Origin: a virus
DNA: 24,621 bases
Reading direction: 5' to 3' (one strand)
IMG/VR virus record: IMGVR_UViG_3300030085_003035
Span: 1 to 24,621 of that record
Shown: piece after piece, positions 2,579 through 24,621 of the stretch
Layout: every line of letters begins with the position of its first letter
Position numbering within the stretch: the stretch's first letter is position 1
The notes under the pieces: model-generated
The model's database searches: none
Seen by the model: only the letters and a program-made list of their open reading frames with translations
Told to the model about the DNA's origin: nothing
Translations under genes and position numbers: made by a program

Positions 2579-3265
2579 TTAATTTACTTCAGGATCAGGT
2601 ATTCCATAAGGTTGACGTGGATCTTCTTTATTAACACCATTAATTGCATCCACTAGCACTTTTGCTTCAGCAAGCTCATCAGCTTTTTGAGCGGCTACAT
2701 TATCGTCAAGCTCTTTGAATGCACGTGTTTCACGAAGCTTTTCAAGTAAGTATTCATTCTGACTGATACGAGTTTTGATCACAGCGTTGGCTGTAGCATT
2801 CTTATACTCAAGTAGAACATATGCACGATACTGAGTTCCATGCTGTACGATCTTTTGTTCTTTGACAGAGTAACCAGCAACATCAGCGTCTGCAATCAGA
2901 TTACGAGTTACTTGCTCAAAGTTATTTTGAACAGTAGCATCATAGTCAGTAACACCTACTTTAGTCTTAAACAATTTTAATTGAGACCTGATACGACTAT
3001 CAACACGATCAGCAAGAGTTGTCTTAGCTGAAAGTACTGCAATATCAACTGATAACTGAAGATCAGGTGTAGCTGAAGTACCTACTGCATATACAGCATC
3101 ATCTTCCTTTGGTATATCAGTATACCAATCAGGCATCTCATCAATTTGATTTTCAATCTGAGCTACCTTATACTCAAACAATTCTTTTGACATTGACACA
3201 TCGGGTGGTGTCTTATCACATGCTGCAGCCATTGCAGCAATTGGTAGTAACATAAATTTTTTCAT
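2579..3265 (-). CDS. LPP20-like lipoprotein, 228 aa
   Basis: Predicted secreted lipoprotein. Residues 1-16 form a lysine-led hydrophobic signal peptide ending in MAAAC, with Cys16 as the lipidation site. The following residue is Asp17; by the E. coli Lol rule this would favour retention in the inner membrane, though the host's sorting rule is unknown. The mature part has the LPP20-type pattern: PDWY (about 45-48), AVGTS (60-64), repeated alanine-spaced helices (VDIAVLSAKTTLADRVDSR), then a beta segment YRAYVLLEY. LPP20 family proteins are envelope proteins of bacteria; I do not know a role for one in a phage. It is the last gene of the 4416-2579 operon and follows a 41-aa membrane protein by one base, with an AAGGAGCT RBS. 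Confidence 0.75.
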   Translation of the reverse strand: MKKFMLLPIAAMAAACDKTPPDVSMSKELFEYKVAQIENQIDEMPDWYTDIPKEDDAVYAVGTSATPDLQLSVDIAVLSAKTTLADRVDSRIRSQLKLFKTKVGVTDYDATVQNNFEQVTRNLIADADVAGYSVKEQKIVQHGTQYRAYVLLEYKNATANAVIKTRISQNEYLLEKLRETRAFKELDDNVAAQKADELAEAKVLVDAINGVNKEDPRQPYGIPDPEVN

Positions 3266-6380: not shown

Positions 6381-7049
6381 CTAATCTCTCAAATCTATAG
6401 TTTTTATTGAACCGCTTTGTTTACCGGCATCAACAATTTCACCACGCATTTTGTAACTATGAACCTCAACATTCTCTGGTACTTCAAATTTAAGTGCGCT
6501 ATGGAAGTGGTGTAGATTTATTTTAGTCTCATTAAAATCTTTGAACATATTATTAAAAAGAGGACGCCAGTTATTGGTTAACCGGTTATTGTTCATGCTA
6601 CCTCTATCAGAATTAATATACATGTCAGTGCTTGATCTTAAATTAAAATCAAAAATAGAATCGAATCCGTACATATGTACTACCTCTGCTTTTAAGTGTT
6701 CTAATGCAAAGTATGTTGCCATGTGACCACAATTAAAGTCCGTATAGTTTGCAGCATACTTAGGTAGTTTCGTATAGAATTGTTTGATTTGTCGTGCTCT
6801 CTTGGTGTAAAAGTTTGGATGTTTATCCATATACATCTTAGGTCGAGCACCAAGAATCCAATCACCCGGTACATCAACGATACCAGTATTAATAGTATGC
6901 ATCATCTTAAAATCGACTATGCATGCAGCATATGAATCTGGTATTTCAAATGGTGCTAAGTTACACGTAAGCTTCAAACCTTTTCTTTTTTCTTCGTGAT
7001 ACAATACAGAAGAATCACCATTGCCAATAATATGTACTGTTCTAGGCAC
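6381..7049 (-). CDS. MptE/DUF115-like protein, 222 aa
   Basis: Begins MPRTVHIIGNGDSSVLYHEE, a beta strand plus glycine-rich loop like a nucleotide-binding fold. It continues with ACIVDFKMMHTINTG and CGHMATYFALEHL, then VVHMYGFDSIFDFNLRSS (about 123-140) and DRGSMNNNRLTNNWRP. The YGFDS and NCGHMA segments resemble MptE/DUF115-type proteins, often found beside glycosyltransferases in phages and in motility-protein glycosylation loci. The exact reaction is unknown. It is the last gene of the glycan cassette and overlaps the upstream GT by 8 bp. Confidence 0.65.
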   Translation of the reverse strand: MPRTVHIIGNGDSSVLYHEEKRKGLKLTCNLAPFEIPDSYAACIVDFKMMHTINTGIVDVPGDWILGARPKMYMDKHPNFYTKRARQIKQFYTKLPKYAANYTDFNCGHMATYFALEHLKAEVVHMYGFDSIFDFNLRSSTDMYINSDRGSMNNNRLTNNWRPLFNNMFKDFNETKINLHHFHSALKFEVPENVEVHSYKMRGEIVDAGKQSGSIKTIDLRD

Positions 7050-7722
7050 GAATAGCCTCCTTAATCTTCATTAGCCCTTTAATTCTGTCATTACCTTTAG
7101 CTCCGGTCCAATGCATAATTTTCTTATCACTAGAATCTTCGTTATCATGCTCTATCTGTAACCTGAGCCAATTCCATTTATTTGGTAGTTCATTAATATA
7201 TATTTGCCTGTTAAGAGGATCAAGCATGGAGTGTAAAACTTCTTGATCTCCAACTTTAGGTGTAGCTTCAACTTGTGATGCCCACTTATATAGGATTTCT
7301 GGTTTATTAACTATTCCCACAACACCTGAATTGAACCATTCCTCTTGTCTGCGTTTTAACCAAGGCCTATCCATAACCATATTAAGCTTGTTTGGTTCTA
7401 ATATTCTAAAGATATGTTCTAGATTTGCTAGTACTTGACAGTCAGTATCAAGCCATACGACCTTTTTACCCGGTGCTTTCAGCATTGCAGCCGGCTTTAA
7501 GAACCATCCTTTTTCAAATTGTCCTTGTTGATCATGATGCATCAGGCAAAAAGCATGACTTTTTGTTTCAACCCAATGTATCATTTCATCGGACATACCA
7601 AAATTACCAATAGCAATCGGTGTGTTGTTATGCTTAAAATAGTTTTCTAAAAACCAAGGCAACTGCCACTCGGTTTTTTCATCACATCCCGTTAGGAATA
7701 AATTATCTGGCATCTTAGGCAT
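7042..7722 (-). CDS. GT-A fold glycosyltransferase, GT8-like, 226 aa
   Basis: Likely transfers a sugar from a nucleotide sugar. The metal-binding DxD is DTD at 92-94 in KKVVWLDTDCQVL, preceded by FLKPAAMLKA, as in glycogenin/GT8 enzymes where a lysine and small residues precede the DxD strand. NSGVVGIVNK (about 131-140) fits the acceptor-side strand, and a late histidine (KIMHWTG) could be the second metal ligand. No membrane segment, so it is cytoplasmic. Acceptor and donor are unknown. Overlaps by 8 bp on both sides. Confidence 0.75.
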   Translation of the reverse strand: MPKMPDNLFLTGCDEKTEWQLPWFLENYFKHNNTPIAIGNFGMSDEMIHWVETKSHAFCLMHHDQQGQFEKGWFLKPAAMLKAPGKKVVWLDTDCQVLANLEHIFRILEPNKLNMVMDRPWLKRRQEEWFNSGVVGIVNKPEILYKWASQVEATPKVGDQEVLHSMLDPLNRQIYINELPNKWNWLRLQIEHDNEDSSDKKIMHWTGAKGNDRIKGLMKIKEAIRA

Positions 7723-8365
7723 TGATTATCTTATATCCAATTTTATAGTTGTGTTTTGCTAAACAACCTGTTTTATTCTGTATTGTAGAAAAAGAATCGG
7801 CAGCCATGCAGACCCATGGATAGTATTCTTGTAACCAAGGGAAATTTTCTTTATTGAGATATAGATCCGTAGGACCTGCATGTGATACTGCTTTTTCGAC
7901 TAATTCCTTTGCACCATCTGGATTAACGATATAACCATGTGCACCACCAAAGTATGGTTTTTGGATTAGTCCATCAACACCGAGTTTAAGTGGTGTTTTG
8001 TACTTTCCATAGGAAGGTTTAGAGAATGTCATGACTTTATCAAATTCGACATCAACCGGAACTTGACCTGTCACTAAAGCATCATGTTCAAATATTACAA
8101 CTCTTTCGTTCATGTCTCTGGATATTTCCCAACACGAATAGTGAGAAATGAAAGCAGACATGCAATTTTCTGCTCTAGAATATACTTCATTAAACCTATT
8201 TGGATTGATACCACGAGACTTTAAGAATTTTTCAGGATTGTCTTTTGGAGTAAAGGCATCGAATTGTTTTATTTCGAGACCATATTTTGCTCCGGATGCA
8301 ATGCATCTTTTAGCAGCCTTCACTGATCTTTCGTTATCTTGAATTGTTATTACAAATGCTTTCAT
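7715..8365 (-). CDS. Glycosyltransferase family 25-like, 216 aa
   Basis: Resembles GT25, the family of LPS beta-galactosyltransferases (LgtB type) and collagen galactosyltransferases. Seen: the N-terminal strand MKAFVITIQD, SCWEISRDMNERVVIFEHDA with the EHD motif (93-95) replacing DxD, and GGAHGYIVNPDGAKELVEKA, typical of the family's C-terminal half. Cytoplasmic, with no membrane segment. The upstream neighbour is a paralogue, so the pair probably arose by tandem duplication. The stop of that gene and the start of this one share one base. Confidence 0.78.
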   Translation of the reverse strand: MKAFVITIQDNERSVKAAKRCIASGAKYGLEIKQFDAFTPKDNPEKFLKSRGINPNRFNEVYSRAENCMSAFISHYSCWEISRDMNERVVIFEHDALVTGQVPVDVEFDKVMTFSKPSYGKYKTPLKLGVDGLIQKPYFGGAHGYIVNPDGAKELVEKAVSHAGPTDLYLNKENFPWLQEYYPWVCMAADSFSTIQNKTGCLAKHNYKIGYKIINA

Positions 8366-9060
8366 TATGTCACCGTTGTTGATGGCAGACCTTGAACTCG
8401 AGTATAATAAGTCTTAGTCACACCGAGGTTTGGGATAATCTGTTTACACATTATCGCATCATTTGGCCAGAGTCCGTGTTCCTTTACAGCATCAAGTACA
8501 GCCTTAGCTCCGGCTGGCTTGATTATATATGCGCTGTTTCCGGCTAAACCTTGAGGTACATTGAACTCATCAATTGTAGGTACAGGTTGTATCAGAGCAT
8601 GTGTAGCTTGTACTTTGTCATGGAATTCATGAGCTTTACGAGTAGCGGCCGCAGGACTATTGATTCCTATGATGTCATACTTACTGTCTATGATCTTATC
8701 GTGATCAAGCTTTTTGATAAACAAAGCGTCATGCTCGAGAATAAGCAATGGTTCATCACTACTTAAACATTTATGCCACAACAACCAGTGACTCAGAGCA
8801 CATGCAATTCTTGTATTACGATTAGCAGTAGGGTACGCAGTTTTAATTAGACCAGTTTTAATGTCTGTTTCTTGTCCTTCCCAAGGATACTTCCATCTAA
8901 TGCCATTACCGGACATGACAGTCCTTGCCATTTTTGACACAATAGCATTGAACTTTTTAATCTGAAAAGAATTTTTTACTTTCTTTGAAGACGCTTCAAG
9001 ATTAGTATATCCTTGTTCAGATACTTCATGACCTTCTATGACAATAGCATAAGCTTCCAT
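8365..9060 (-). CDS. Glycosyltransferase family 25-like, 231 aa
   Basis: Second GT25-like enzyme. Begins MEAYAIVIEGHEVSEQGY, then ALSHWLLWHKC and PLLILEHDALF (EHD at 109-111). The C-terminal half carries GLAGNSAYIIKPAGAKAVLD, matching the GYIV-P-GAK block of its neighbour. It probably adds a hexose to LPS or a glycoprotein acceptor; the substrate is unknown. The start at 9060 shares a base with the stop of the upstream 73-aa gene. Confidence 0.75.
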   Translation of the reverse strand: MEAYAIVIEGHEVSEQGYTNLEASSKKVKNSFQIKKFNAIVSKMARTVMSGNGIRWKYPWEGQETDIKTGLIKTAYPTANRNTRIACALSHWLLWHKCLSSDEPLLILEHDALFIKKLDHDKIIDSKYDIIGINSPAAATRKAHEFHDKVQATHALIQPVPTIDEFNVPQGLAGNSAYIIKPAGAKAVLDAVKEHGLWPNDAIMCKQIIPNLGVTKTYYTRVQGLPSTTVT

Positions 9061-9281
9061 TAGTCTGTCACAATCACCCACTGTACACCAGTTTCAGGTG
9101 AATCGCCTACTACAAAGTTGCCGGGTTTTGACCAGTCAACATTTGCCAGCATGTTAGCATGTTCTACGTCTCTATGAAACTTTGAAATATTTTGCGTACT
9201 TTGTGTACTATGAATTTCATCTGGTTGATTAAGATAATGTGATCCGGCAGCTAGTGCTCCGATAATAAGTAATGCTTCCAT
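9060..9281 (-). CDS. Small membrane-anchored protein, 73 aa
   Basis: Begins MEALLIIGALAAGSHYLNQP: a short hydrophobic N-terminus (2-14) that could be a membrane anchor or signal peptide, then a polar domain with SKPGNFVVGDSPETG. The ATG at 9281 follows AAGGACTTAATA, a good RBS; longer in-frame readings do not have one. Function unknown. It sits inside the glycan cassette between a methyltransferase-like gene and a GT25-like gene. Confidence 0.65.
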   Translation of the reverse strand: MEALLIIGALAAGSHYLNQPDEIHSTQSTQNISKFHRDVEHANMLANVDWSKPGNFVVGDSPETGVQWVIVTD

Positions 9282-9283
9282 TA

Positions 9284-9874
9284 TTAAGTCCTTTTCAATA
9301 CGGTGTAACCAACGTTTTCTACACCTCGTTCTTCGACTTTCCACGACGGATTGTCTATACAAAAATTTACTAGGCATTCGTAGAGTTCAACCAAGTTACT
9401 TGACTGTGCTCTACTCGTATCATGAGCAACGATGTATTTTGTAACCATCTGCCCGTGAATCTGTAATTCTTTTTCCATGTGTGGTCTCTTATGAATTGAA
9501 TCAATTACAAGCATGTCCACTGCTTTACTTGACATAGAACCTAGACCACCGGAATCTGCCTCTCTTACTACGAGTTCAATACCATGTTCTTTACAGTATG
9601 GTTCTGCTAGTGCTTTGAGAGTCTTACGATATTTAACATGATCAATATCGATAAGTTCCATATACTTTGGTTTATTATCTGACAACATTGCCGCAGCTGC
9701 ACTCGCACCTTGATGAGTACCTAGTTCTTTATATGACCTACAGTCTTTCATAAACTTCTGAATAGCATCGTGCATTGCACAGTAATGAAGACCATGTGCT
9801 TCTTCTTGTTGCCAACGTATCTCTTGATAAAACTCTTCAACTGATTTTACGTGATCTATTTTAGCTGTTAACAT
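9284..9874 (-). CDS. Class I SAM methyltransferase-like, 196 aa
   Basis: Rossmann-type pattern: SYKELGTHQGASAAAAML (47-64) with ELGTHQG as motif I, KYMELIDID (70-78) as motif II, VDMLVIDSIHKRPHMEKEL as the motif IV region, then KYIVAHDT. This resembles the Methyltransf_24/CmcI group, which O-methylates sugars and small molecules. In this setting it may methylate a sugar. There is a 14-bp overlap with the upstream GT gene, and it is directly followed by the 73-aa gene. Confidence 0.7.
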   Translation of the reverse strand: MLTAKIDHVKSVEEFYQEIRWQQEEAHGLHYCAMHDAIQKFMKDCRSYKELGTHQGASAAAAMLSDNKPKYMELIDIDHVKYRKTLKALAEPYCKEHGIELVVREADSGGLGSMSSKAVDMLVIDSIHKRPHMEKELQIHGQMVTKYIVAHDTSRAQSSNLVELYECLVNFCIDNPSWKVEERGVENVGYTVLKRT

Positions 9875-10739
9875 TAGATATATTCCTCAATTGGCTTACT
9901 AGGCTATTGTCTTGTTTTGGTGGATCATTTGGCCACTCCTTGTGTAGATGCAAATTCCACTCGGCTATTGGTTTATTGGTGATTCTCCAAAGAACGTCAG
10001 TTGACCAATCATCGGCAGTGCGGAACATGATATGAACCAACTTAGCATTATCAGGCCTATTGTCCCCAATCTTTGCGTTTGGATGTGAACCTACTTTATG
10101 CATATAGCAATTCCATTCATTAGGTAATCGCTTAAAGTTAAACGTTGGTAGATGTATAAAGGCTGAGAAATAGTCCTGAAAGTATCGATAGAAATTAGGA
10201 AATTCACGCATTTGATTTACGTACTGCTGGAATGTAGGCCACTCAGTTTTAATCTTTTTCAGACCAGCTTTTGAAATAACTACAACACCTGTGTTGAATA
10301 CTTCGGGTCTATCGAGTTTATCGAAAGAATATTCGACACCCCAATTCTTTTTGCATACCTCTACCCAGCGTTTATCAATATCGCTGGTAATACCACCCGA
10401 TGCGTATATAGTTCTGAAATATGGTTGCTTCGGTTCTGTACAGATTCCAGCATCTTCTCCATCTAATAAATCAAAAATGTTATCTGACAATCCTTCGGTT
10501 GGAAATATATCAACATCACAAAGCATAACGTTGTCATACTCATCAAACTCATCGCATATAAGTGGATTAGCCGGTTCATAGTAGATAGGAACATTGACTA
10601 CCTTACCGGCAATCGTTTTATTCAAATCAAATCTATACTCTGCACCAATACGCTTGGCATATTCTTTCATAAGCTTACAGCTATATTTTACACCCGGCTT
10701 TAGATCGCCTTTCCAGTACTGGTAAATTATATTTTTCAT
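9861..10739 (-). CDS. GT-A glycosyltransferase-like protein, 292 aa
   Basis: Begins MKNIIYQYWKGDLKPGVKYS, with KEYAKRIGAEYRF (25-37), then a DxD in NVMLCDVDIFP (DVD 75-77), and later FNTGVVVISKAGLKKI. This layout (N-terminal Q-Y/F strand, YAK-GAEY helix, DxD strand) is shared with the products of 11746-12417 and 13371-14159, so these three are paralogues. It probably uses a nucleotide sugar; acceptor unknown. The start at 10739 shares one base with the stop of glf. Confidence 0.72.
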   Translation of the reverse strand: MKNIIYQYWKGDLKPGVKYSCKLMKEYAKRIGAEYRFDLNKTIAGKVVNVPIYYEPANPLICDEFDEYDNVMLCDVDIFPTEGLSDNIFDLLDGEDAGICTEPKQPYFRTIYASGGITSDIDKRWVEVCKKNWGVEYSFDKLDRPEVFNTGVVVISKAGLKKIKTEWPTFQQYVNQMREFPNFYRYFQDYFSAFIHLPTFNFKRLPNEWNCYMHKVGSHPNAKIGDNRPDNAKLVHIMFRTADDWSTDVLWRITNKPIAEWNLHLHKEWPNDPPKQDNSLVSQLRNISNVNS

Positions 10740-11749
10740 TATGATTTTTCCTTAATAAATCTTTCAGTTGTAGCAAGAGAAGAACTAATAGCCTGGTGCA
10801 TATCAATATAAACATACATGCCACATCTTCCTATAAATGTCATGTCCTTATTTAATTTAGCCTTATAGCTTTTATATATTCTCTGGTTAACGCCGTCAAT
10901 ATCTTTTACTGGATAATACCTTTGATAATCGTTGTCGCTATAGTTGCATGGTTCTTCATATGTCAAAGTTGTCCATCCGTCATTGTGGCCATGACATGGA
11001 TAATTTTTCCACTCGGTAATACGAGTATATTTTTCTTGATGAGTAAAATTAACTGTTGGTACCGGTAATAATTTTGGCATAGGTAAGTTTACATCATGAA
11101 ATTTTAGTGAACGATATGGCAGCTCACCAAACTCATAATCATAATACTCATCAATTGCCATTGAATTAAATACATGCTCATACCAGCCTTCCATATATTT
11201 TTTGAAAGGTTTATTTAATTCAACTGTTATGTTTTCATGATCAAGTATTTCTTCAATTACTTTTGTATAACCGTGTTTAGGCATGACCCCGTATTTGTCA
11301 TTTGGAAAGTAGTAATCATTATCATCATCGCGAGTTGCGACTCTGTTAACAATATTTGGATCAAGTTCTTCTAACTCCATAGCCCACATTTTTCGAGTGT
11401 ATGGTCTAAAGAATGTGTCAATAATATTTTCTTCACCAACAATATCTTTAGTTTCTCGATTAACGGGTAGTGTTACATATTTGCCATCAGATAAAAGAGC
11501 TTTTACTTTATGATGGTATTCTACCCATTCTCCAAATTGTGTAATCCAGTCATATGCTTTTTTGTTGTTAGTATGAAAGATGTGTGGACCATACTTATGT
11601 ACACGTATACCCAAGGAATTAGTATAGTCGTAAGCATTACCGGCAATATGGTCGCGCTTTTCAATCACATGAACTTTATAACCAGCATTGGCTAATTCAT
11701 GCGCAACTACAGCACCAGCAAAACCTGCTCCAACAACTAGTATACTCAT
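10739..11749 (-). CDS. glf: UDP-galactopyranose mutase
   Basis: FAD enzyme that interconverts UDP-galactopyranose and UDP-galactofuranose, the donor of galactofuranose (Galf) residues. Seen: FAD motif VVGAGFAGAVVAHELA (5-20), EKRDHIAGNAYD (30-41), KYGPHIFHT (52-60), RPYTRKMWAMELEELDP (115-131) and ATRDDDNDYYFPNDKYGVMP (138-157), which contains the conserved arginine/tyrosine region of UGMs. At 336 residues it is somewhat shorter than typical bacterial enzymes (about 370-385). Cytoplasmic. It lies at the centre of a glycosyltransferase cluster, with 4-bp and 1-bp overlaps to GT genes on either side, so Galf is probably used by one of these transferases. Confidence 0.92.
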   Translation of the reverse strand: MSILVVGAGFAGAVVAHELANAGYKVHVIEKRDHIAGNAYDYTNSLGIRVHKYGPHIFHTNNKKAYDWITQFGEWVEYHHKVKALLSDGKYVTLPVNRETKDIVGEENIIDTFFRPYTRKMWAMELEELDPNIVNRVATRDDDNDYYFPNDKYGVMPKHGYTKVIEEILDHENITVELNKPFKKYMEGWYEHVFNSMAIDEYYDYEFGELPYRSLKFHDVNLPMPKLLPVPTVNFTHQEKYTRITEWKNYPCHGHNDGWTTLTYEEPCNYSDNDYQRYYPVKDIDGVNQRIYKSYKAKLNKDMTFIGRCGMYVYIDMHQAISSSLATTERFIKEKS

Positions 11750-12417
11750 ATTATACCTTTTAACTTAAGCTCATAATAATTTTCAATCTTTTCTCGCTTT
11801 GGTCCTTGCGGCGTAATCTTTGTTCTCACATGAATAAATCCTGCTTTTTCGGGATTAGGTAAGAAAGAACATTGGCACCACCGCTGATGCATATAAGGTT
11901 CTTCTGGTTGGAAGTGTGCTCTCTTTGCAAGGATATGCATAATGCCTTCATCTTCAAACTTATACGCCTCGTTAAATTGTTCCATCCACGACTCATCACC
12001 ACCTAGATGTTCTCTTAAAATCTTTCGAGTTGGTAAGTCCATTTTATATATCGCTCCACCCCAATAGGGATAGAGCATACTACCGCCGGCGGTGTTAGCT
12101 ATTTTTCGGTGTAACATTTGTTGAGTACTGGCGTATAGACCAATACCCGGAACTTTGAATACATTTGTAAACATACCCTTTGGAGCAAACATATCAATAT
12201 CAACCATGAGTACTTGATCGTAATCATCATAGTGTTCTGATAACATAAACACTTTTTGACATGCACCAGTTAGATGTTTTCTGAAAGGCCTACCTCTTAC
12301 AAGAGCATACTCTGCACCTACAAATTTAGCGTACTGTTTCATGTTTTCAATTGATAAATGATCTAGTTCTCGTAAATCGCCATCAAAATGCTGTAAAATA
12401 ATATTAGGCCTAGACAC
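11746..12417 (-). CDS. GT-A glycosyltransferase-like protein, 223 aa
   Basis: Paralogue of the neighbouring cassette GTs: SRPNIILQHFDGDL, then NMKQYAKFVGAEYALVRG (25-42), and DQVLMVDIDMFAPKG with DID at 73-75. I chose the GTG at 12417 because AAGGA lies about 10 bases upstream; the longer TTG reading from 12438 has no RBS. Overlaps glf by 4 bp and the upstream gene by 8 bp. Donor and acceptor unknown. Confidence 0.7.
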   Translation of the reverse strand: MSRPNIILQHFDGDLRELDHLSIENMKQYAKFVGAEYALVRGRPFRKHLTGACQKVFMLSEHYDDYDQVLMVDIDMFAPKGMFTNVFKVPGIGLYASTQQMLHRKIANTAGGSMLYPYWGGAIYKMDLPTRKILREHLGGDESWMEQFNEAYKFEDEGIMHILAKRAHFQPEEPYMHQRWCQCSFLPNPEKAGFIHVRTKITPQGPKREKIENYYELKLKGII

Positions 12418-12790
12418 TGTACATTGTTCCTTTCTCAATTATTTCTGGATTGTACTTATCTATGTAAGAGTTCATATTGAAGTCATTCATTTCCAGACAT
12501 TTATTTTTTTCACAACTTACTGCGTTGTTCTTAGTAGACAGACCTATGAAAACTTTCGGCACTAGTATTGTATTGTCACGTAATTTTTCAAGCATTATCA
12601 TTGTTTCATATGTAGGTACAAGATTTGTTGTAGTAATAAAAATATGTTTGTTGACAGCTTTTTCTATCGCATGCATATGTGAATGCTCATTAAAAATAAA
12701 TTCCATCTTAGCATGTTTCAACCTCAGAGGTGTCCAGTACTCTGGAAATTTGTAATGAGATTGAGTACAATCAACAATTATTGTTACCAT
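12410..12790 (-). CDS. Hypothetical protein in glycan cassette, 126 aa
   Basis: I do not recognise it. Begins MVTIIVDCTQSHYKFPEYWT, with a later alternating beta/alpha pattern (KHIFITTTNLVPTYETM; TILVPKVFIGLS), which could be one half of a Rossmann-like fold. Three cysteines and many histidines are present without an obvious motif. Embedded between a methyltransferase-like and a GT gene, overlapping both, so a role in the same glycan pathway is likely but not shown. Confidence 0.65.
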   Translation of the reverse strand: MVTIIVDCTQSHYKFPEYWTPLRLKHAKMEFIFNEHSHMHAIEKAVNKHIFITTTNLVPTYETMIMLEKLRDNTILVPKVFIGLSTKNNAVSCEKNKCLEMNDFNMNSYIDKYNPEIIEKGTMYSV

Positions 12791-13386
12791 TTAGTTGCTT
12801 CCACTACTGCAGAATGTAGAGCTCTTATTCTTCCGGGTGTATCGATATTAGCAAAATCTGCCGTGCGACTTTCCATATACTTATGTTCTTTTACGTCACT
12901 AAATCCTAATGACTTGAGTGTATCTATCATTTCAGCTTTGCTCCATATATGCAAATGCTGTCCTTTCTGATGTAGTAAACCTAATGCACACTGCTCTCTT
13001 TTACTTCTATGTCCATTCCCTGGTGGTGAGAATTTTTCTCTTACGATATAAAAATTATAGTAATGATCTACAAAGTTAGTTTCGTGTTCATCTAGTTTTT
13101 CATCACTTACTAATCTTTCTACAAATTCATACGGAGGCCATACAGTTCTTATGACACCACCTGGCTGCAATATCCTTTTTACTTCCTTAAAAAAGTTTAT
13201 GCCTTGGTACTTGTACATGTGTTCGATAAAGTGTTCTGAATATACACCATTGAATTCTTTATCACCGTAAGGTAATGGTAGGTTAGTAGCATCACCTTTC
13301 GCAACTCCACTATGTGTTGCTAAGTTCATAACTGTCCAGTTCAGACCGCGTGGTTTCTCTGCAGCTATCTCTAAGTACCTTGCCAT
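12784..13386 (-). CDS. Methyltransferase-like protein with degenerate motif I, 200 aa
   Basis: Resembles Methyltransf_11-type SAM enzymes found in sugar and LPS loci: KGDATNLPLPYGDKEFNGVY (30-49), SEHFIEHM (50-57), FFKEVKRILQPGGVIRTVWP (65-84). These are motifs II to IV and post-IV. The glycine-rich SAM loop normally at the N-terminus (G-G-P) reads YLEIAAEKPRG (4-14) here, with the key glycines replaced. It may be catalytically impaired or use SAM differently. Overlaps its upstream GT gene by 16 bp. Confidence 0.7.
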   Translation of the reverse strand: MARYLEIAAEKPRGLNWTVMNLATHSGVAKGDATNLPLPYGDKEFNGVYSEHFIEHMYKYQGINFFKEVKRILQPGGVIRTVWPPYEFVERLVSDEKLDEHETNFVDHYYNFYIVREKFSPPGNGHRSKREQCALGLLHQKGQHLHIWSKAEMIDTLKSLGFSDVKEHKYMESRTADFANIDTPGRIRALHSAVVEATKW

Positions 13387-14159
13387 ATACTTAACTCCGT
13401 ATGTTCTAGTCTTGGCATTTCAAATTTAGTACGAGCCAAGAAGTGATTTAATTTTCCATCAGGTTTACCACGCCATTGATAAGGCATGCGATTCCAAGTT
13501 GTACTAAACTCGGTTACATTAAAAATTGGCTGGTTAATTCCACGTGGAATTGGTTGTGATAATTGGAGATTGACATACATCTGTTCTGTATATCTTGTGT
13601 GTAGGACGTAGTTATCAATGGAAGTAAAGTGCTCTCTTGCTTTTGCTCTACCTTCTTTACTCCATAATTGAAAGCCTCCATTGAGATAACGGAACCTTTC
13701 TTCTGGATAACGAGTTGATTTCGGAAACATCCAGTCCTTTCCGAATAGGTGTTTGCCGTATGCAATGATTCCTCTTTCTTGTAGAGGTTTATCCATGACA
13801 TTGCGCAACCATGCTGCTGGTCCGCCCGTATGCACACCATATTCATGCACCATTGCTACATCTGCAATGTCACGTTCGAATACGTTGTCTTTACTTGCTA
13901 TGAGCATGTCTAGATCTAAACAGAGTACGTGGTCATATTGTTCAAATTGTGGATCATAGAATAAACGGATGGAATCTAAACGAGGATCCAGATGCGGGAA
14001 AAACCGGTCAGTGGTGAACATGTAATCTGCACCACAATTATCTGCATATGCTTTTGCAGATCTTTGACCGGCCTTTGCCCATTCAGGCATTTCTTTTCCA
14101 CCCATATCTGCATCAAAAGATTCATATGGGATATAATATTGAAATATCAAATTCCTCAT
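13371..14159 (-). CDS. GT-A glycosyltransferase-like protein, 262 aa
   Basis: First sugar-transfer gene of the cassette. MRNLIFQYYIPYESFDADMG, then AKAYADNCGADYMFTTD (35-51), DHVLCLDLDMLIASKD with DLD at 82-84, and RYLNGGFQLWSKEG, the NGG strand found in GT8-like enzymes. Same organisation as the products of 9861-10739 and 11746-12417. The ATG at 14159 follows GAGGTG directly. Substrates unknown. Confidence 0.72.
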   Translation of the reverse strand: MRNLIFQYYIPYESFDADMGGKEMPEWAKAGQRSAKAYADNCGADYMFTTDRFFPHLDPRLDSIRLFYDPQFEQYDHVLCLDLDMLIASKDNVFERDIADVAMVHEYGVHTGGPAAWLRNVMDKPLQERGIIAYGKHLFGKDWMFPKSTRYPEERFRYLNGGFQLWSKEGRAKAREHFTSIDNYVLHTRYTEQMYVNLQLSQPIPRGINQPIFNVTEFSTTWNRMPYQWRGKPDGKLNHFLARTKFEMPRLEHTELSIWQGT

Positions 14160-14166
14160 TATCACC

Positions 14167-14382
14167 TCAAAAAAGTGGAGCTGTAAGTCTTCCTTTCGGT
14201 AGGGGTCTACATTTCCACCTAGTTGCTTTGTATCCTATCATATGTATATGTACATCTTCTGACATTTCGAGTGCTCTCACTTCACATCTTTCATACGATT
14301 TATACGGACCTCTTTGGTCTTCAAGGATTTTACAACTTTCTGTATTCCATACTAAGCAAGCCCAAACTAAGGCCTGATACAT
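14167..14382 (-). CDS. Conserved small phage protein, 71 aa
   Basis: Begins MYQALVWACLVWNTESCKIL and continues EDQRGPYKSYERCEVRALEM, ending with GYKATRWKC. A hydrophobic, possibly cleaved N-terminus is followed by a cysteine-containing domain (five cysteines in all). It resembles a small protein I associate with marine T4-like phages. The ATG shares one base with the stop of the EF-hand gene. Function unknown. Confidence 0.7.
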   Translation of the reverse strand: MYQALVWACLVWNTESCKILEDQRGPYKSYERCEVRALEMSEDVHIHMIGYKATRWKCRPLPKGRLTAPLF

Positions 14383-14747
14383 TAACTAGTGCCATTCTTC
14401 TTTGTCTTCTGGTATGCTTGTGCACCAAAGAAAGCACCAACTAGAGCTGAGATTGCGACAAAGTAGGTAGGAGCAATGTCTGCAAGTAATTGTCCTGTTG
14501 TTTCATACCCCACCATATCTGCGCAAAAAATGCCAACAGGATATAGAAGCATACCCCATAAAGCAAACCATGCCATACGTCTAATTTGATCTTCTTTTGC
14601 ATCTTCATTCTGTTGCATAGTTCGTTTATGTTCAAACTCTGCTATCTCTTTCGCTCTTGCCATTTCTTCATCTGTAATAATACCATCGCCATCAGTATCT
14701 AGCTTTTCAAAGATAGACCCTGATTCAAGTGTTTTTGATTTTGCCAT
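14382..14747 (-). CDS. EF-hand membrane protein, 121 aa
   Basis: A canonical EF-hand calcium loop lies at residues 17-28 (DTDGDGIITDEE; ligands D17, D19, D21, T25, E28), flanked by helices. It is followed by two predicted membrane segments at about 58-76 (MAWFALWGMLLYPVGIF) and 92-110 (APTYFVAISALVGAFFGAQ). A helical linker with many acidic/basic residues separates the parts. This implies an inner-membrane protein that senses or binds calcium. A strong CGGAGG RBS precedes the ATG at 14747. It overlaps the upstream gene by 49 bp. Role in infection unknown. Confidence 0.8.
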   Translation of the reverse strand: MAKSKTLESGSIFEKLDTDGDGIITDEEMARAKEIAEFEHKRTMQQNEDAKEDQIRRMAWFALWGMLLYPVGIFCADMVGYETTGQLLADIAPTYFVAISALVGAFFGAQAYQKTKKNGTS

Positions 14748-22663: not shown

Positions 22664-22876
22664 TTAATCAGAAAAATGTTCGTTGATCGTATCAATCACA
22701 TCTTGCCAACGAGCAATTTTTTCCATCTCAGCTACTACAGCTTCTGTAATATCCGAGTGTTCACCGATACCAGCTGGATTAGCAAGGTATACTTCAACAT
22801 TCATTTTATGAACCGCAATGTTACCTTTAGCATATTCTTCTACTGCAGCTAACATATCATCTCTAGTGTCAATCAT
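22664..22876 (-). CDS. Conserved hypothetical phage protein, 70 aa
   Basis: Acidic helical protein (MIDTRDDMLAAVEEYAKGNI ... NEHFSD). It resembles small conserved genes of marine T4-like phages. The RBS is weak: GGAG lies 12 bases from the ATG. It follows the 53-aa membrane protein gene by 9 bp. Function unknown. Confidence 0.7.
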   Translation of the reverse strand: MIDTRDDMLAAVEEYAKGNIAVHKMNVEVYLANPAGIGEHSDITEAVVAEMEKIARWQDVIDTINEHFSD

Positions 22877-22885
22877 TTTTATTTT

Positions 22886-23047
22886 TTACTCCGATTTCCA
22901 AATTGTCCATGCACCATAAGCAATTGCTGCGTATGCTGCCATTTTTGCGAAAGGTCCGGCAAATAAAATTACAACACCTACAGCAACAAGTGCTGCGCCG
23001 TCCCACGATGTTCTTTCACTTATCCTGTTATTTATCCATTCTCTCAT
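22886..23047 (-). CDS. Small two-segment membrane protein, holin candidate, 53 aa
   Basis: Begins MREWINNRISERTSWDGAAL, then a hydrophobic run VAVGVVILFAGPFAKMAAYA and AIAYGAWTIWKSE. Two membrane segments (about 17-30 and 36-50) with a short turn at GPFAK, a charged N-terminus and a short polar C-terminus. Its place right after the membrane-anchored DUF1353 gene and the spanin pair makes a holin role possible, but sequence alone does not show it. Confidence 0.7.
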   Translation of the reverse strand: MREWINNRISERTSWDGAALVAVGVVILFAGPFAKMAAYAAIAYGAWTIWKSE

Positions 23048-23048
23048 G

Positions 23049-23675
23049 CTACTCTCCTAATAATTTCTTTTCGTTGAACTCATTGAGTCCTTCGATTTTA
23101 CAGTTACGTTTACGGTGTCCATTCCATGCTGCGAATCCTCCAATACGCAATGCCCAATAAGCAAGGTTATTAAGGAAATGAAAACCGTTTTGCTCGATGT
23201 TAATATCTCTAAATATTTCATCGGCTCTTTTCTGGTCAATGACTCCTAATGTTTCTTTCTGACCAGATCGCAACAGAGTTTCATATTTATATGCGTAGTC
23301 GTGTACGAGACCACCCATTAACAAAACACCTGTTGGCGATAACCACGTATGCAAGAACTTTGGTATCGATGCTCCATCGAACTGAAAGCCTTGCGGTATA
23401 ATAAATCCTTCTCCATTAATCTCAAATGCCCAGTCATCTGCTACTTCCCAATGACGTGTACCAAGTAACCACATCCATATTGCACCCCAAAAACCTTTGC
23501 CGGCTGTGGGGATAGGAATCGGTCTTAGTTTTGGCATTACATTATATTTGAATCCTATAAGTTCTTTATCATTGTCTACACCAAAAAGATTAATAATAAA
23601 TCCGATAATAATAAGAACACCGACTACTGTGAATTGCCACCATGTTATAAGTTGATCTATAATAAAAGACATCAT
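23049..23675 (-). CDS. Membrane-anchored DUF1353 protein, 208 aa
   Basis: Residues 8-31 form one membrane helix (LITWWQFTVVGVLIIIGFII). The rest matches DUF1353: HWEVADDWAFEINGEGFIIP (75-94), GFQFDGASIPKFLHTWLSP (96-114), LMGGLVHDYAYKYE (119-132) with the conserved HD at 125-126, and RADEIFRDI (150-158). DUF1353 is common in tailed phages; its activity is not established to my knowledge. Next to spanins and with an N-terminal anchor, it could be a cell-wall enzyme. The ATG overlaps the o-spanin stop by 4 bp (ATGA), with AAGGAG upstream. Confidence 0.78.
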   Translation of the reverse strand: MMSFIIDQLITWWQFTVVGVLIIIGFIINLFGVDNDKELIGFKYNVMPKLRPIPIPTAGKGFWGAIWMWLLGTRHWEVADDWAFEINGEGFIIPQGFQFDGASIPKFLHTWLSPTGVLLMGGLVHDYAYKYETLLRSGQKETLGVIDQKRADEIFRDINIEQNGFHFLNNLAYWALRIGGFAAWNGHRKRNCKIEGLNEFNEKKLLGE

Positions 23676-24064
23676 TCTTCTTTCTCCTTATCTGTTACAG
23701 CATCTTCGTAATATACAATAATGTTTTTTTGTTGATTAATATATCTTCGAAGCTCTGCAATGTTAAGAGCTAAGTTCTCATAATCTTTCATTGATAAAGC
23801 AACAAAAGCAAGTTCACCGTTTTCCGCGGTAAACTCTTTTACGAATTCTTCATAGATCTCTTCGTTTACTACGTAAACTCGAACATCATTCAGTTGTACT
23901 GGCTTCGGTCGTGCTACCGTCGGTATCGTTACTTTCTCGATCTTGGTTACCGTCTTCACTTCCGCTGGCAGCCTTAGACTGCTGCAGCCAGTTAGGAATA
24001 GGACGGCCACCATCGCCACCGGTATCGGTAGTAATTTCACGCCAGATTTTAGCAGTTGCACCAT
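23672..24064 (-). CDS. o-spanin (Rz1-like) outer-membrane lipoprotein, 130 aa
   Basis: Signal peptide with lipobox LTGC (24-27; Cys27), followed by Ser28, which fits outer-membrane sorting. The mature part begins SSLRLPAEVKTVTKIEK, with proline-containing stretches, then a predicted helix. It overlaps the i-spanin candidate gene by 179 bp in another frame, the out-of-frame overlapping arrangement seen in many Rz/Rz1 pairs. It is longer than lambda Rz1. Function: joins the inner spanin to fuse the membranes at lysis. Confidence 0.7.
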   Translation of the reverse strand: MVQLLKSGVKLLPIPVAMVAVLFLTGCSSLRLPAEVKTVTKIEKVTIPTVARPKPVQLNDVRVYVVNEEIYEEFVKEFTAENGELAFVALSMKDYENLALNIAELRRYINQQKNIIVYYEDAVTDKEKEE

Positions 24065-24389
24065 TCATTCTACCTTCTAAGTCTTTTGCATCTGTCAGTG
24101 CATCTTTGACTAGATTGAGTTGTTGTAATTTATCACGGAGACTATCTCCGTATTGTTCAGCCTTTTGTAAATCTACTTGCAGAGATTTATTGAGTGCTCC
24201 TAATTTTTCTTGATTTTCGATTGCTGCATCTAAACTCGCCGATGCTGTCTGTACAGCAACTTCGAGTTGTGCATTGTTCTCAGTAAGGATCGCAATCTTA
24301 TTTTGTGTAGTGTCATAATAGTATTTAGCACCATACGCAACAGCACCAATGATTGCCATAACAAATATTAAGATGTATATTCTAAGCAT
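23886..24389 (-). CDS. i-spanin (Rz-like) protein, 167 aa
   Basis: N-terminal membrane anchor at 4-20 (IYILIFVMAIIGAVAYG), then a long coiled coil (about 27-105, for example NKSLQVDLQKAEQYGDSLRD) and an acidic, serine/threonine-rich end. This is the topology of inner-membrane spanins. The acidic C-terminal part overlaps the start of the o-spanin gene in a different frame, which may explain its low-complexity composition. Assignment rests on topology and context, not on sequence identity. Confidence 0.68.
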   Translation of the reverse strand: MLRIYILIFVMAIIGAVAYGAKYYYDTTQNKIAILTENNAQLEVAVQTASASLDAAIENQEKLGALNKSLQVDLQKAEQYGDSLRDKLQQLNLVKDALTDAKDLEGRMNGATAKIWREITTDTGGDGGRPIPNWLQQSKAASGSEDGNQDRESNDTDGSTTEASTTE

Positions 24390-24391
24390 TG

Positions 24392-24571
24392 CTAATCTGC
24401 CGCCGCTATTGTAATAGTTCCGGCATCTACTTGTTTTATTATTTCATCATAATGCATGTTACCTACTGCACCCACTGCAACAGACATTTCAGTTTGTCCA
24501 TTACATGTAAATTTTATTGATATGTTATTTCCACTTTGATCTTTAACATACTTTAAATTAGTAAAAATCAT
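24392..24571 (-). CDS. Small conserved phage protein, 59 aa
   Basis: Begins MIFTNLKYVKDQSGNNISIK, then a beta-rich body and HYDEIIKQVDAGTITIAAAD. The pattern (initial beta strands with a KYVKD motif, then Y-EI-K-V-AGT) resembles small proteins found near phage structural genes. The ATG at 24571 follows CGGAG by six bases. Function unknown. Confidence 0.7.
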   Translation of the reverse strand: MIFTNLKYVKDQSGNNISIKFTCNGQTEMSVAVGAVGNMHYDEIIKQVDAGTITIAAAD

Positions 24572-24572
24572 T

Positions 24573-24621
24573 TTATATCTCCGCTGAAAAATCAAATGAA
24601 ACATCAATAGCACCGCTAGCG
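24573..24621 (-). CDS. 3' end of an upstream gene (partial)
   Basis: The last 15 codons of an open frame entering from the right edge: ASGAIDVSFDFSAEI followed by a stop at 24573-24575. The RBS of the next gene lies within its last codons. Too short to name; possibly structural. Confidence 0.5.
   Translation of the reverse strand, partial: ASGAIDVSFDFSAEI

Follow-up and report, generated by a model that had tools for sequence, protein, structure and literature searches.

Lysis of Gram-negative hosts by phages involves three steps, in which the inner membrane, the wall and the outer membrane are breached by holin, endolysin and spanin, respectively. The spanins of lambda, Rz/Rz1, are a membrane-anchored i-spanin and a lipoprotein o-spanin encoded by overlapping genes, and the signal-anchor-release (SAR) endolysins (P1 Lyz, N4 type) are lysis-operon products with a single N-terminal membrane helix. 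Group XIV phospholipases A2 (PLA2s) are Ca2+-dependent; the secreted members SvPLA2 (1LWB/1FAZ), TbSP1 (4AUP) and 8K1W are disulphide-bonded. A phospholipase has been proposed as a lysis enzyme of phage WO, which lacks endolysin and spanins and in which a patatin-like PLA2 is encoded beside a holin-like gene (PMC9203015).

The DUF1353 family includes a member of established activity. For TtaP (typhoid-toxin-associated phospholipase A2), a soluble protein of 125 aa from a bacterial islet, phospholipase A2 activity was demonstrated experimentally in 2024; the D85A change abolishes it, and the His/Asp residues of the protein were matched to those of group XIV PLA2 (PMC11525133). The native host showed no envelope phenotype after deletion of ttaP, and the authors reason that the enzyme must be kept inactive or spatially restricted (PMC11525133). 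In the accessible parts of that report, they mention DUF1353 proteins in prophages without tying them to lysis. Our literature search, which covered mostly non-subscription journals, returned no paper linking DUF1353 to phage lysis.

Here we analyse a virus fragment of 24.6 kb (24,621 nt; IMG/VR record IMGVR_UViG_3300030085_003035), called the window throughout. By their DUF1353 proteins, its nearest sequenced relatives are two Kyanoviridae with genomes of 141-147 kb, Methylophilales phage Melnitz (72% identity) and Pelagibacter phage HTVC008M (56%); the window would represent about one sixth of such a genome. What is new here is a spanin lysis module containing a membrane-anchored, TtaP-like predicted phospholipase. 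The idea of a phospholipase in lysis had already been proposed for WO, but the WO patatin belongs to an unrelated family and its phage has neither endolysin nor spanins (PMC9203015); the present module includes spanins, and endolysins occur in its relatives.

The spanin-DUF1353 module and its conservation

The module lies on the minus strand and is transcribed in the order i-spanin, o-spanin, DUF1353 protein, 53-aa protein and 70-aa protein. The tightly packed run of four ORFs given in the preliminary description, from the spanin pair to the 53-aa gene, was recovered in full. The i-spanin (Rz-like; 23886..24389, 167 aa) has an N-terminal membrane helix and a periplasmic coiled coil, matches phrog_739 (lysis, Rz-like spanin; E=2.4e-4), a match that reaches E=5e-17 for its orthologue in Melnitz. 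The o-spanin (Rz1-like; 23672..24064, 130 aa) starts inside the i-spanin gene, with an overlap of 179 bp, and its product is a lipoprotein that matches phrog_812 (lysis, Rz-like spanin; E=2e-14) and carries the lipobox LTGC, read from the sequence. Helix, lipobox and overlapping genes are together the features of a two-component spanin, as in lambda; the window spanins differ from Rz/Rz1 in being joined to a putative DUF1353 enzyme. The o-spanin stop and the start of the DUF1353 gene (23049..23675, 208 aa) overlap by 4 bp, a 1-bp gap separates the DUF1353 stop from the start of the 53-aa gene (22886..23047), and a 9-bp gap separates the latter from the possibly co-transcribed 70-aa gene (22664..22876; phrog_1811, E=2.5e-26; present in 49 relatives), so the co-oriented run extends past the 53-aa gene. 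At its other end, a truncated co-oriented ORF (24392-24619) lies 2 bp before the i-spanin. T4-type late promoters (TATAAATA) occurred at a frequency no different from chance.

We gathered 160 related loci from IMG/VR and counted linkage in the 107 with at least 1.5 kb of flank on both sides. Both spanin genes were found within 2.6 kb of the DUF1353 gene, on the same strand, in every one of them (107/107), a linkage that exceeds chance. Gene order varied, the spanins being upstream in 65 loci and downstream in 42. Since the linkage persists through rearrangement, it argues for shared function and not for one inherited gene order. The relatives thus bear out the claim that DUF1353 is a fixed part of a lysis module.

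The 53-aa protein is conserved with the module and was detected in 77 relatives; among the 107 fully flanked loci, 49 had its gene no more than 2.6 kb from DUF1353, at several module positions. Its hydropathy profile has a strong first hydrophobic segment and a weaker second one, it matches no family, and it is possibly the holin, for which we regard it as a candidate only. Another holin or lysis-accessory candidate, which joins the module in 36/107 relatives, is a coiled-coil protein of the DUF7201 family; it has a membrane helix at its C-terminus and weakly resembles the XhlA 'hemolysin' lysis proteins (examples at 12579-13034 of locus L002 and 13360-13782 of L003).

Other parts of the window carry an apparent sugar-modification cassette, a run of glycosyltransferase-like and methyltransferase-like genes (6381-14165) with a UDP-galactopyranose-mutase-like gene (10739-11749). 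A PF09056 match inside the latter (14.5 bits, below cut-off) was set aside as chance. The window also encodes a 121-aa protein (14382-14747) with two hydrophobic stretches and an EF-hand-like Ca2+ motif (PF00036, E=1.5e-4, below cut-off), possibly relevant if Ca2+ gates lysis.

Putative active site, fold and membrane anchor of the DUF1353 protein

The window protein matches PF07087 (E=1.1e-13; 51 bits against a curated cut-off of 22.5), DUF1353 being its sole Pfam domain (23151..23450). Four residues, D100 (23376-23378), H125-D126 (23298-23303) and D152 (23220-23222), are identical in 161/161 relatives, 125 of which have distinct sequences. H125-D126 corresponds to the HD pair, and D152 to the second Asp, of TtaP and group XIV chemistry; by analogy, D100 and D126 may form a putative metal (Ca2+) site. 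The window protein and TtaP share the Pfam family, the His, its adjacent Asp and the second Asp, and neither has a disulphide-rich fold; the window protein differs in its membrane helix, its spanin neighbours and the length of the loop from the His to the second Asp (27 vs 15 residues) (PMC11525133).

Similarity to group XIV PLA2 is detectable by profile only. When a diverse DUF1353 profile with the window protein among its members was aligned to these enzymes (4aup, 1faz) in hhalign, the probability was 89.9 and the score 40, compared to scores of at most 18 for 60 column-shuffled profiles; the matched positions include the HD motif, the second Asp and a C-terminal YxAVRxFGW motif. A profile built from pelagimyophages alone gave no match to PLA2 (probability 1.2); the PLA2 link therefore runs through family membership, that is, through the Pfam match. 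Sequence searches of the PDB returned chance matches only with the pelagimyophage profile, and the 4aup PLA2 only at E=1.8 with the diverse one. Note that the DUF1353 proteins of this lineage have 0-2 Cys, mostly 0-1, so they lack the disulphides of the classical secreted group XIV enzymes and we file them as TtaP-like. Three distant members (S2B, Vibrio 1.050 and ctjLE16; loci L172, L173 and L177) keep the HD pair and seem to be without the second Asp, and some family members may hence be inactive.

AlphaFold2 models reached a pLDDT of 76 for the full-length protein and 83 for the domain. The domain model matched DUF1353 proteins of other phages in BFVD (E=5.7e-7, TM 0.63). DUF1353-like folds also occur there in metagenomic giant viruses (A0A481Z3V6 and A0A481YVG4; Pithovirus LCPAC001, Marseillevirus LCMAC102). 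Against 475 PDB chains, the full model ranked the PLA2 8k1w first but weakly (Z 4.5, next 2.4), and 8k1w was absent among the candidates for the domain model; we therefore do not use the fold as proof. Foldseek returned no significant PDB match for either model. A wall hydrolase was prominent in neither structure list, a result that excludes nothing.

The single N-terminal membrane helix noted earlier was confirmed as a strong hydrophobic segment at residues about 8-33 (23577..23654; Kyte-Doolittle peak 2.63), and the AlphaFold2 model places a helix at residues 2-31. Across 161 orthologues, the N-tail contains 0-2 Lys/Arg; compared with it, the 15 residues that follow the helix contain more Lys/Arg in 146 orthologues, the same number in 15 and fewer in no case. 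The positive-inside rule predicts from this that the catalytic domain faces the cytoplasm more likely than the periplasm; acidic flank residues render the signal ambiguous in the subclade to which the window belongs. The likeness to a SAR anchor that had been suggested is not supported by this prediction: the N-tail never has more Lys/Arg than the C-flank, a pattern that in most orthologues is opposite to what an N-in/C-out anchor would show and that is ambiguous in the window subclade. None of the 24 DUF1353 proteins that we examined from other phages carries a membrane helix, so the anchor is particular to the window's lineage.

Endolysins of the relatives and DUF1353 genes of other phages

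No endolysin was found in the window; searches for GH108 and Hydrolase_2 were negative and ten other ORFs were checked. The observation that no classical endolysin is visible therefore stands for these 24.6 kb. Close relatives with the same module encode wall hydrolases elsewhere in the genome: HTVC008M, Melnitz and the contigs of loci L036 and L023 have a soluble GH108 muramidase-type protein, and Melnitz, L058, L025 and L036 have one of the SleB-like Hydrolase_2 type. A GH108-like gene of Melnitz has been proposed as endolysin or autolysin (PMC9004378). The GH108 proteins of the relatives have no membrane helix and thus require a holin or another pore. With wall hydrolases of both types in close relatives, DUF1353 need not be the endolysin. 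The preliminary description had set a classical endolysin elsewhere in the genome, together with a virion location of the DUF1353 protein, against its own reading; the endolysin half of this was seen, in close relatives. Peptidoglycan hydrolases in the same element are also a point of likeness to TtaP (PMC11525133).

DUF1353 loci were also picked from phage matches whose neighbourhoods were not known beforehand, giving 25 lineages, the pelagimyophages included. A recognised lysis gene (endolysin, holin or spanin) lay at most three genes from DUF1353 in 12 of them. The neighbours are spanins in the pelagimyophages, an amidase in Cobetia Carin1 and Fusobacterium Fnu1, endolysin and holin in Fusobacterium phiRTG5, a peptidase in Fusobacterium Funu2, endolysins, holin and spanin in Salmonella gmqsjt-1/E. 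coli Bas80, a phrog_3427 holin (E=3e-29) in Vibrio Bakedbeans, a CHAP protein in podovirus ctjLE16, a lysozyme in Erwinia phiEaH2, and an M15 peptidase in Erwinia Phobos, in Caulobacter DMCA and in a Helicobacter pullorum prophage. The remaining 13/25 lineages had no recognised lysis gene nearby, and some of the copies lie beside tail or nucleotide-metabolism genes. If the chance for a random gene is 0.14, a guess from 2-4 lysis genes per genome, the probability of at least 11 of 25 copies near a lysis gene is 2.7e-4, for lineages that are not strictly independent and the first few of which are matches of the window protein itself.

In Bas80, the DUF1353 gene (Bas80_0020; 2905-3246 of locus L174) closes an endolysin-endolysin-holin-spanin operon, the next gene being on the opposite strand, and the nearest annotated tail gene, the major tail gene, is 13 kb away. 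This position contradicts the label 'tail assembly chaperone' that RefSeq and PHROG 1158 give to DUF1353, which is probably a misannotation. A tail chaperone gene would be expected between the major tail protein and the tape measure; the pelagimyophage copies are found beside spanins and the Bas80 copy in the lysis operon. Note that in the metagenome-assembled genomes from the phylum of locus L180 (L199-L227), DUF1353 is present in 49/288 genomes, mostly beside tail-fibre genes, so the link to lysis is not universal and a second, tail-end context exists.

Proposed role in lysis and alternative explanations

We favour, with moderate confidence, a reading in which the genes form the lysis module of a marine myophage of the Melnitz/HTVC008M type and DUF1353 serves as a PLA2 lysis accessory, membrane-tethered in this lineage; both the enzyme activity and the lysis role are predicted from sequence comparison. 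By analogy with group XIV enzymes, the protein would depend on Ca2+; as a phospholipase A2 it would work through H125/D152, D126 and D100 lying close to the metal, and it would be held at the inner membrane, its catalytic domain more likely on the cytoplasmic face. Low cytoplasmic Ca2+ would keep it silent, a state suggested by that low Ca2+ together with the restraint that the TtaP authors consider necessary (PMC11525133). A holin, possibly the 53-aa protein, would then open the membrane and admit Ca2+ at seawater level, and the activated enzyme would cut phospholipids into lysophospholipids and fatty acids. A soluble GH108 and/or SleB-like endolysin encoded elsewhere would cut the wall, and phospholipase damage together with spanin-mediated membrane fusion would then clear the barriers that are left. 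The soluble DUF1353 proteins of unrelated phages would be released together with the endolysin.

The rival that we take most seriously, and still hold to be rather unlikely, is a PLA2 with a role outside lysis, in host lipid remodelling or recycling or in an envelope change against superinfection, that sits beside the spanins through shared late expression. It would fit the absence of an envelope defect after ttaP deletion (PMC11525133), the copies near nucleotide-metabolism or tail genes, and an anchor that would confine activity to one membrane. It sits poorly with a spanin linkage kept in 107/107 loci despite reshuffled order and with the recurrence of DUF1353 beside endolysins and holins of unrelated phages. 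The membrane anchor and the tight module would suit a catalytically dispensable timing or scaffold protein, for instance one that serves the spanins or the 53-aa protein as an anchor or as an antiholin partner, and the apparent loss of the second Asp in some distant members points the same way. A part for DUF1353 in lysis control, as had been raised earlier, is possible, but the invariance of the four putative active-site residues in 161 relatives makes a dispensable active site improbable.

That DUF1353 is a tail assembly chaperone or another virion or tail factor appears decidedly improbable: the window protein does match phrog_1158, which bears that name, at E=1.9e-26, and tail or tail-fibre genes surround some of the copies, but neither the Bas80 operon, far from tail genes, nor the spanin-adjoining pelagimyophage copies agree with it, and nor do the conserved putative enzyme active site and the membrane helix. 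The reading in the preliminary description, a cell-wall-degrading enzyme held in the membrane as a SAR endolysin, we consider very improbable. In its favour are a spanin operon whose DUF1353 product has one N-terminal membrane helix and an HD motif of catalytic appearance, and a 24.6-kb window in which no endolysin was found. The member of the family that has been studied is a phospholipase (PMC11525133), and its residues are kept; the window protein matches no wall-hydrolase family in Pfam or NCBIfam, and GH108 and SleB-like enzymes exist in relatives. As to the anchor, an N-in/C-out orientation would call for positive charges that are missing from the N-tail, and the flanking charges are opposite to those of SAR endolysins.

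Returning to the PLA2 lysis accessory, our results suggest that some phages add a membrane-digesting enzyme to the usual wall-digesting enzymes for host burst. A broader generalisation, which we put forward tentatively, is that DUF1353 represents a general class of phage lysis enzymes: cytoplasmic, Ca2+-gated PLA2s, inactive until the holin admits Ca2+, that would then digest membranes beside holin, endolysin and spanin. The pelagimyophages would tether theirs to the inner membrane, and the PLA2 gene of the typhoid toxin islet would have been captured from phage lysis genes, as would its phage-type muramidase neighbour. The PLA2 lysis idea is directly testable in the laboratory coliphage Bas80, which requires no marine host culture. 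If true, a lysis-operon phospholipase of many unrelated phages, masked by the name 'tail assembly chaperone', would extend the three-step scheme by one enzyme class; it would also make a large family of unknown function open to a meaningful test and hint at the origin of the typhoid toxin islet phospholipase.
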